A program made the translations under genes and the position numbers. Positions 41,078 through 44,198 of a stretch of DNA of 44,198 bases are shown here, one piece after another. The stretch is taken from contig NYXZ01000016.1 in the NCBI GenBank assembly GCA_002686595.1, positions 4,115-48,312 of the forward strand, in the 5' to 3' direction. This DNA comes from Planctomycetota bacterium (lineage in GTDB: Bacteria > Planctomycetota > UBA1135 > GCA-002686595). The notes beneath the pieces were generated by a model that searched no databases, had not been told where the DNA came from, and worked only from the letters and a program-made list of their open reading frames with translations. How positions within the stretch are numbered: the stretch's first letter is position 1; the number at the start of each line of letters is the position of its first letter.

Positions 41078-42478
41078 TCACTTGCTGGTGGTGTCACCGG
41101 AAGCTCGGGCGGCGTCCACGGCGGCGTCGATGCCGCGCTTGAGAGCCGCCACCAGACGCGGAATGGCTGGTGTGGGAGTCGAGCAAAGGGCGACGCGCAC
41201 GGCGCCCTTCATGGGGACGATGTAGACGCCTTCGGCGCGCATGGTGGCGGCGGTCAGTTCGGCGTCCGGCGTGAAGAGCGAGACGAAGAAGCCACCCTCG
41301 TAGCGCGGATAGACCAAGCCCAGGGCCTCGGCTTCGCGATTGAAGACTTCCACGCGAGCGCCCAGGTCGCGGATCAAGCCGGCGCGCTCAGCGTCTACCC
41401 GTTGACGCAACTCGGCGTTTGTCAAAAGCTCCGTAATGGCCAATAGGCCCAGGTGATTGCAGTTTGACCAGGTGCCACGGCAGGAGAAGGAGATGGCGTT
41501 CGCGATGCGCTCGCGCTCATCGGCGTCGTTCGCCAGGGCCACCAGGGCACCGATGCGCGCGCCGTATTGGGCAAAGGTCTTGGAGGCACTCCAGGCCACC
41601 AGCACCACGGCTGTTTCCGCCATTGTATCCAGGTGCTGAATCCAGGACTCGGAGCCCTCCCGCCCGTAGCGCGCGTAGGCCAAATCATTGAGGAAAGCCA
41701 CCGGTGCCTGGCGGCCGGCCTCGCGCACGATGTTCGCCACACCCGCCCATTCCTCATCGTCGAGTGAGTAACCGGTGGGGTTGTGGCAGGGGAAGTTGAA
41801 GATGACCAGGGCCCGTCCTTGGCGGGAGATGGACCAGGTCAGGGATTCCTCGAAGGCCTTGAGGTTGAAGCGGCCTGACTCATCGAACATCTCGAAAGTC
41901 TCGACGGCCCGCCGCGTGTGGTTGGCGATGATCTTGTAGGGCGTCCAGAAGTACTCGGTCGTCAAGAGCGCCTGACCGGGATCGAGGAAGTTGACAATGG
42001 CGTGGTGCAGGGCGCCGGTGCCACCGGCCGTGGCCACGGCTACGGAGTGCGCGGAGAGCGTGCCGGGTTTGCTCGTGGGCGCGCCGAAGGTGTCCTCGAT
42101 CACCGCCCGCAGAAAGGGTGGATCGCCGGCGATGGGCGCATAGGCGGCGGCCTTGGTCGGCGGTACCGAGGCATAGGCCGTGAAGACCGCCGGCATCACA
42201 CACAGGCGTCCATCGTCCTCCATCAACGCTCCGATGGTGGCATTAAGAATGTCCTCCCCGGCGGCGGCGCGGGCCTTGGCCTCGCTGTTGAGGGAGAAGA
42301 TGGGGTCGTCACCGGGGCGGTCGGTGGCGGCGTCGATGAGGTGGGAGATCTGGTCAGTGGTCAACGCGTCGTTCACTGGCAATGTGATGGAAAGCCCGCA
42401 GGCGGGATTGCCCAGGCCGCTGGCGCCCGAGCGAAGTTTGGTGAGGTCACCGTGAATTGAGGCCCTAGTGTAAGGCAT
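41078..42478 (-). CDS. Class I PLP-dependent aminotransferase (aromatic/aspartate type)
   Basis: LVIFNFPCHNPTGYSLDDEEW, AFLNDLAYARYG, WSASKTFAQYGARIGALV (PLP lysine). Confidence 0.88.
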   Translation of the reverse strand: MPYTRASIHGDLTKLRSGASGLGNPACGLSITLPVNDALTTDQISHLIDAATDRPGDDPIFSLNSEAKARAAAGEDILNATIGALMEDDGRLCVMPAVFTAYASVPPTKAAAYAPIAGDPPFLRAVIEDTFGAPTSKPGTLSAHSVAVATAGGTGALHHAIVNFLDPGQALLTTEYFWTPYKIIANHTRRAVETFEMFDESGRFNLKAFEESLTWSISRQGRALVIFNFPCHNPTGYSLDDEEWAGVANIVREAGRQAPVAFLNDLAYARYGREGSESWIQHLDTMAETAVVLVAWSASKTFAQYGARIGALVALANDADERERIANAISFSCRGTWSNCNHLGLLAITELLTNAELRQRVDAERAGLIRDLGARVEVFNREAEALGLVYPRYEGGFFVSLFTPDAELTAATMRAEGVYIVPMKGAVRVALCSTPTPAIPRLVAALKRGIDAAVDAARASGDTTSK

Positions 42479-42668
42479 GGATGCCTGCCTGACCGGCAGA
42501 ACCGGGAGAATGGGGTAGCTGGGGCAACTCCCTGGGGGGGGTGGGTGCGGGTCCTGTATGCCTCCTGAAAGACCACCTCCGGGAGAGACCGGGACTGTGG
42601 ACAGGTCGGGGCACGGCGTTATGGTGGTCACCTGCGAGTTTCCTCGCCCCCGAGGCCTCGTGCCACCG

Positions 42669-42731
42669 GTGGCCGCCGTGGCCATTTATGGTCCCCGTGG
42701 CCCCCGTGGCCCCCGTGGCCACCGTGGCCAT
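42669..42731. repeat. 9-bp tandem repeat (TGGCCNCCG unit)
   Basis: TGGCCGCCG TGGCCATTTA TGGTCCCCG TGGCCCCCG TGGCCCCCG TGGCCACCG TGGCCAT. Confidence 0.8.
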
Positions 42732-42782: not shown

Positions 42783-44009
42783 ATGTTGCTCTCCGCCCTT
42801 TTGTTGACCGGCAGCGGCGCCCTCGCCGCCCCGGCCCCCGCCCCCGACCACGGCAAGCTCGCCTGGGTCGACGGAACCTTCGAAGCCTTGGTCGAGCAGG
42901 CCGAGGCGGCTGACAAACTTATCTTCCTCGACTTCTGGGCGGATTGGTGAGGCTGGTGCAAACGGTTGGACAAGGACACCTTCTCCAACGACTCGGTGGT
43001 CACCGAGATGGGCGACATCCTGTGCATGAACCTCGACAAGGACAGCAAAGCTGGCGGTGAGGTCGCCGAACTCTTCGGCGTCGGCCCTCTGCCGACCCTG
43101 CTGTTCCTGGACTCCGACGGCTCCCCGCGAGACTCGATCATCGGGTACCTGCCACCGGAGTCCTTCCTGGATGAGGTCAAGCGCATCAAGAGCGGCCGGG
43201 GCACGATCTCCGGCCTGCGCGCCGAGCTAGAGAAAAACGGCGATGATGTTTTGGCACACCTCCAGTTGGCCTCGAAGCTCGGAGGCTTCAACGACAAGGA
43301 AGGTGCCGCCGCCCAGGTAAGCGCCGCCACGGCTCTCTTGAAAGCGGAAAGGGGTTTCGATGCCTCTAGCGTGGATGAACGCTTCGCCATCGCCCTGGCC
43401 CTGCTCGAGCACGAGTTGGAAGACCTCTATGACCAGCAGGTGGCCGCCATTGCCCGTTTGGATCCAAACGGCGAGAGCATGCCCTCCCGGCGCTTGGCCC
43501 TGGATGAAGCCATTGACACCTTGATGGCAACTGGCGACAAGACCGCACTCCTGGTATTGCTCGGCAAGGAGACCTCGGGCGAGCTCCTCTTCGAGGGTTG
43601 GGGCATGATCCAACGCTATGAGGCCTGGAAAGGTGGCAAGGCCAGCAATGACGGCGACGCCGACGCCGCCAAGAAGCACGGTGCCGCTGCCCGCCATGCC
43701 GGAGCCCAGGCTTGGAAACACTGCCCCGAGGACAAGCATGGGTCGTTTGGCAATTCCCTGGCCTGGAGTTACTACGAGGCCGCGGAGGAGCTGACCAAGG
43801 AGGAAATGGACTACGCCATCGACGTCGCCTACAAGGCCCTGAATGCCGCGCCAGGTGATGTGAACGTCATGGACACCGTGGCTTGCTGCCTCTACATGGC
43901 CGGCCATGTGACGGATGCGGTGAAGATGGTCAAGGAGTGCCTGAAGATCGACCCCGACAATGAACTGTGGATGGAGCGCATGAAGGAGTTCCACCCGCAG
44001 ATGAAGTAG
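42783..44009 (+). CDS. Putative selenoprotein: secreted thioredoxin-fold protein with UxxC motif (Sec at codon 56, TGA 42948-42950)
   Basis: AGGAG SD 9 nt before ATG; MLLSALLLTGSGALAAPAPAPDHGKLAWVDGTFEALVEQAEAADKLIFLDFWADW[TGA]GWCKRLDKDTFSNDSVVTEMGDILCMNLDKD...FGVGPLPTLLFLDSDG. Frame is intact on both sides of the TGA (codon 56 of 409). cis-Pro motif GPLPTLLF present. Confidence 0.9.
42965..42989 (+). promoter_or_regulatory. Candidate bacterial SECIS hairpin
   Basis: GTTGGA-C-AAG-GACAC-CTT-C-TCCAAC: 6-bp lower stem, C/C mismatch, 3-4 bp upper stem. Apical loop starts about 24-25 nt after the TGA. Confidence 0.65.
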
Positions 44010-44018
44010 ACCGCGCTG

Positions 44019-44055
44019 CGCGGGGCCGGCGGTTGCGCCGGCCCCGCGTTTTTTT
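44019..44055 (+). terminator. Intrinsic terminator of the putative selenoprotein gene
   Basis: 12-bp perfect stem CGCGGGGCCGGC/GCCGGCCCCGCG, loop GGTTGC, followed by T7. Confidence 0.93.
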
Positions 44056-44198
44056 GTGCCTGGGCTCGCCCGCTACCTTTACCTGGGCGGCCCTACCTGA
44101 TTAGCACTGCACGCGGGACGCTACCTTGCAGAGCTGATGCCATACGGGTGCACGGTCTGTAACGCCACGGCATCAAGGCCGCCAGCATCTCCCCCGCT

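Follow-up and report, generated by a model that had tools for sequence, protein, structure and literature searches.

Organization of the locus and reading frame of the gene

The window analyzed, a stretch of 44,198 nucleotides, comes from contig C21 of a planctomycete draft genome (3.38 Mb, 150 contigs, 86% complete), for which a search with the planctomycete marker PF07583 was negative. Toward its right end, a gene predicted to encode a selenoprotein was found on the forward strand, opposite a divergently transcribed neighbour, with the following features:

41078..42685, − strand: class I/II aminotransferase, the divergent neighbour; a similar divergent neighbour lies beside the Sec genes in L064 and L027
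42771..42775, + strand: Shine-Dalgarno sequence AGGAG, 7 nt 5' of the ATG, read directly from the sequence
42783..44009, + strand: predicted selenoprotein gene, 408 residues with Sec at position 56 and a TAG stop; homologues align over its full length
42783..42830, + strand: hydrophobic leader MLLSALLLTGSGALAA, a likely signal peptide judging from its sequence and the similarly hydrophobic N-termini of homologues
42858..43193, + strand: thioredoxin domain, residues 26-137 (PF13098, 41.4 bits against a cut-off of 27; DsbD-gamma fold)
42948..42950, + strand: TGA, predicted Sec56, the first residue of UxxC (TGA in five genera, Cys in 35 homologues)
42957..42959, + strand: resolving Cys59 of UGWC, a nearly invariant alignment column
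42965..42989, + strand: candidate bacterial SECIS hairpin, 14 nt 3' of the TGA
43092..43094, + strand: Pro104, the cis-Pro of the thioredoxin fold, invariant in 30 sequences
43206..44003, + strand: C-terminal TPR-type helical superhelix, residues 142-407 (AlphaFold pLDDT about 98; matches to consensus TPR and OGT TPR)
44020..44056, + strand: Rho-independent terminator, a GC-rich inverted repeat followed by a T run, read directly from the sequence

With TGA translated as U, positions 42783-44009 encode 408 residues with one TGA, at codon 56, before the TAG stop. A standard ORF list begins this gene at the internal TTG at 42966. A preliminary description of this DNA had placed the start further upstream, and the ATG at 42783 with its AGGAG 7 nt before does lie in the same frame as the listed ORF. 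Translation likewise confirmed the single TGA that it had located at the first redox residue (FWADW-U-GWCK), and its resolving cysteine corresponds to Cys59 of UGWC, which hardly varies in the alignment. If translation instead began at the TTG, as in the ORF listed by the standard gene finder, the product would have 347 residues and only the second half of the thioredoxin fold, and the upstream part would be a separate short frame. Such a product would lack the leader, first strands and active site common to the homologues. The upstream part, however, is in the same frame, closely resembles residues 26-55 of relatives, and has a similar GC3 (0.87 5' of the TGA and 0.81 3' of it, with lower values in the two other frames), making an internal start highly improbable. 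A standard gene finder would truncate the gene at an apparent stop, which almost certainly encodes selenocysteine at the thioredoxin active site.

A scan of the whole window returned 25 TGAs flanked on both sides by at least 40 open codons with coding-like GC3, and only that at 42948-42950 was surrounded by a UxxC motif. Of 21 major ORFs examined in the window, 13 end with TGA, so it serves as an ordinary stop here, without genome-wide reassignment, in agreement with the view taken in the preliminary description.

The window ends where contig C21 ends, and positions 43829-44198 overlap the reverse-complemented right end of contig C144 at about 97%. The two contigs diverge between the end of the gene and the last 31 bases, probably reflecting strain variation that broke the assembly.

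Conservation of TGA at the redox position

Alignment of homologues showed TGA at column 56 in five genera: our gene (WUGWCK), G032 and G034 (both WUSWCK), G080 (WUGYCK) and G007 (WURFCK). The same column is occupied by Cys (TGC or TGT) in 35 homologous sequences, matching the Cys/Sec column that had been anticipated, and by Ser, Asn, Glu or His in five distant homologues; neither TAA nor TAG was found at this position among the homologues compared. The gene selA is present in all five TGA-bearing genomes, and also in most Cys-only genomes of the family.

With TGA present in four other genera, neither a stop arising by chance nor one isolated sequencing error can account for the codon. A pseudogene or a misread TGC or TGT codon might be suspected in a fragmented draft assembly, as TGC and TGA differ by one base and Cys is the commonest residue at column 56. 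The preliminary description had itself named sequencing error among the ways in which its reading could fail, all of which were checked here and none of which was borne out. Independent genomes of other genera, four in number, carry TGA at the same codon, no second disruption occurs across the 408 codons, and the genome encodes the full Sec machinery, leaving this explanation with very little probability. Reading of the UGA as another amino acid, through readthrough or a suppressor tRNA, would also be expected to yield a full-length product. Against it, the codon is always at the redox Cys and always TGA, never TAG or TAA, among the five genes; selA accompanies it in every genome, and TGA elsewhere acts as an ordinary stop. 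We thus regard decoding as a different amino acid as extremely unlikely.

Additional TGAs in or near matches at L031, L067, L068 and L071 were off the redox column where checked (L031, L068 and L071). A class-wide search for Sec forms outside the family (E 1e-25) added one genome, from another family of the same order, with no TGA. A tree of 30 proteins, with 15 of its 27 inner branches open, is compatible with one or with several origins of Sec. In three distant members (L040, L039 and L070) the first redox Cys is replaced by Ser or Asn, with the second Cys kept in L039, so that part of the family probably lacks redox activity, like E. coli CnoX.

A candidate SECIS hairpin downstream of the TGA

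The sequence immediately 3' of the TGA can fold into a hairpin, GUUGGA-C-AAGG-ACA-CCUU-C-UCCAAC (42965-42989), with its loop 25 nt past the UGA. The predicted fold exceeds synonymous recodings of its peptide in stability (z = −3.25), while comparison with dinucleotide shuffles gave a z of −1.45, with 18 of 200 shuffles as stable. Because the latter value is modest, the assignment of this hairpin as a SECIS is likely, not proved. Of its 10 pairs, 9, 9, 7 and 8 are retained in the four other Sec genes (mean 8.25), compared with a mean of 5.09 of 10 in the 35 non-Sec homologues (p = 0.001, uncorrected for relatedness). In both G034 and G007, the second stem pair is C-G instead of U-A; one side of this exchange is a synonymous change in a Leu codon, and the other turns Asn into Ser.

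All 10 pairs are also intact in a Cys homologue (L022, from G015), which is sister to the Sec gene L020 in the 30-protein tree with support of 100/98. The simplest reading would be that this hairpin is a relic of a recent Sec-to-Cys change. As one family includes Sec forms and Cys forms, among the latter one whose SECIS-like hairpin seems to have been preserved, the exchange of Sec for Cys and the decay of the SECIS become directly testable.

Selenocysteine machinery and further candidate Sec genes in the genome

The genes selA, selB, selC and selD, which the preliminary description had suggested looking for, were all detected in the same assembly with scores above curated cut-offs (selA 483 bits, selB 346 bits, selD 332 bits and tRNA-Sec 73 bits), and the anticodon of the tRNA-Sec is TCA. 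On contig C14 (L061, G000:C14:26000-38000), selC, selD and selA lie near one another on the same strand. The selD gene is a selenoprotein gene too, with TGA in frame at the catalytic position (CAGUAAK). Together, the sel genes, the tRNA-Sec and the TGA within selD indicate that the Sec machinery is present and very likely in use. The TGA stop of selD is followed, in the same frame, by a glycerophosphodiester phosphodiesterase-like frame (L061).

A search of the genome with two thioredoxin-fold families revealed five more genes with an in-frame TGA at the redox Cys:

G000:C94:4133-4507: peroxiredoxin with TPTU (L076)
G000:C136:3849-4205: TlpA-like protein with FWGFWUGPC (L078)
G000:C8:11899-12246: TlpA-like protein with FWATWUGPC (L080)
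G000:C20:51239-51547: peroxiredoxin-like protein with UPTC (L081)
G000:C60:140-436: DsbD-like domain with FTGFTUVNC (L089)

With the gene studied here and selD, at least seven genes in the genome carry such a TGA. This points to a sizeable selenoproteome, which standard gene calling would truncate, and the at least five further thioredoxin-fold genes make the genome well suited as a model of a redox proteome rich in Sec. Each of the two TlpA-like genes has a long extension that looks helical, at the N-terminus in L078 and at the C-terminus in L080; fusion to regions of this kind is therefore shared by several of the genome's Sec redox domains.

Sequence and its comparison show the Sec codon and its conservation, as well as the decoding machinery and the predicted fold. 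The selenoprotein interpretation first offered in the preliminary description is borne out by the conservation of TGA in five genera and the complete Sec machinery, and insertion of selenium at residue 56 is predicted with near certainty.

Protein architecture and gene neighbourhood

The N-terminal leader, which had been described as a signal peptide, is hydrophobic and is likely to be one, although its n-region contains no K or R. Nearly all members of the 30-sequence alignment have a hydrophobic leader, which argues against a cytoplasmic location, and export of the protein is probable from these features.

The AlphaFold model has a mean pLDDT of 95.1 and shows helices in succession from residue 142 to 407. 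Three Pfam thioredoxin-domain models exceeded their cut-offs, namely PF13098 (the best match, scored with U written as C), PF13899 and PF00085, while TPR_20 scored 21.8 bits, below its 25-bit cut-off, and none of the NCBIfam models exceeded its cut-off for this protein. In Foldseek searches, the thioredoxin part matched DsbD C-terminal domains and the tail matched consensus TPR and OGT TPR structures. The first-ranked match over nearly the whole chain was E. coli YbbN/CnoX (3qou). The preliminary description had suggested that the attachment of a helical tail to a Sec-thioredoxin domain might be a new architecture. This stands for the Sec form of the TPR fusion, which seems unreported, but not for the architecture itself, as this GTDB family has many Cys forms. 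The TPR superhelix is also present in the Cys-type homologues from many other genera of this family, so the combination of folds is not unique to this protein.

The divergent class I/II aminotransferase also adjoins the Sec genes of G080 and G007, which supports orthology, not function, and no clear redox partner was found in the gene context. Between the aminotransferase and the selenoprotein gene, short GC-rich repeats of the type GGCCCCCGTGGCC occupy window positions 42664-42730. In G032, the Sec gene (L020:2321-3529, − strand) lies downstream of a Cpn60/GroEL-family gene on the same strand, an arrangement that was absent from the other Sec loci inspected; this neighbour is of interest because CnoX cooperates with GroEL.

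Proposed mechanism

We consider it very probable that the gene encodes a selenoprotein in which UGA42948 specifies Sec, a probably exported UGWC thioredoxin with a TPR tail that most likely binds clients or a partner. In the proposed pathway, SelB and the Sec-tRNA (UCA anticodon), guided by the hairpin just 3', would decode UGA42948 as selenocysteine, giving a 408-residue product that is probably exported. Established thioredoxin chemistry assigns to Sec56 the attack on a client disulfide, after which Cys59 would resolve the mixed intermediate and a selenenylsulfide would close. This redox step appears well supported by the residues present, and reductase or isomerase activity is likely. TPR tails usually bind proteins, and the superhelix most likely holds either client polypeptides, in the manner of chaperedoxins, or a partner protein; by this analogy, the balance leans slightly toward client binding by the tail.

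With CnoX as the nearest whole-chain analogue, the leader and the redox residues favour an exported reductase or isomerase with a client- or partner-binding tail. A more specific proposal, which we offer tentatively, is an exported Sec-dependent chaperedoxin, in which Sec would provide a client-binding chaperone with fast, oxidation-resistant redox repair, in a lineage where much of the thioredoxin-fold proteome would have shifted to Sec and this gene would switch between Sec and Cys. The main rival to the favoured reading is a role as a dedicated electron carrier, a relay resembling DsbD-gamma, with the TPR tail as a scaffold for one partner. DsbD C-terminal domains are among the best matches to the thioredoxin domain in both sequence and fold, but the transmembrane domain of DsbD is absent and it is a thioredoxin-TPR chaperedoxin that the protein matches along its full length, and we view a relay role as possible though somewhat doubtful.

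Comparison with known systems

Selenoproteins have been reported in planctomycetes (PMC4807772). UxxC thioredoxins were seen in Sargasso Sea data (PMC1088965), and UxxC thioredoxins and Thioredoxin_2 thiol:disulfide interchange selenoproteins (PF00085, PF13098) are already listed in inventories (PMC13188914, PMC9312934). The protein studied here shares with these the replacement of the first Cys of CxxC by Sec in a thioredoxin fold; the listed proteins are entered by their thioredoxin domain, whereas this one also has a leader and a TPR superhelix of 265 residues. The word 'Tetratricopeptide' is absent from the 2026 inventory paper, and no description of a Sec thioredoxin-TPR fusion was found in the literature and inventories searched, a coverage that leaves out many subscription journals. 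UxxC thioredoxin selenoproteins are thus already known, and the Sec form of the TPR fusion appears to be unreported. The thioredoxin-TPR fusion joins the thioredoxin selenoproteins, and proteins of this kind would be stripped of the half that bears the active site if the lineage were annotated automatically.

The rhodanese/DsbD fusion TsoB (NF045694) is likewise a selenoprotein with a DsbD-like thioredoxin domain, and matches locally at residues 34-135; its architecture is different, and the NF045694 score is 54.5 bits against a cut-off of 805. The DsbD gamma domain (PDB 2fwg, 1uc7), an extracytoplasmic CxxC domain, resembles the thioredoxin domain of this protein in fold (TM 0.72-0.76, target-normalised). 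DsbD has membrane and N-terminal domains, both of which are missing here, and the full-length DsbD model NF001419 gave 58.7 bits against a 330-bit cut-off, matching through its C-terminal domain alone. YbbN/CnoX (PDB 3qou, 3qdn), which in Caulobacter acts as a redox-active holdase (PMC6282202), is the best near full-length fold match, with the same N-terminal thioredoxin and C-terminal TPR. Global superposition is poor (TM 0.21-0.29), indicating that the two have their domain order in common, but not the relative placement of the domains. CnoX has SxxC or CxxC and cooperates with GroEL and DnaK in the cytoplasm, in contrast to the probable export leader and UxxC motif of the protein described here.
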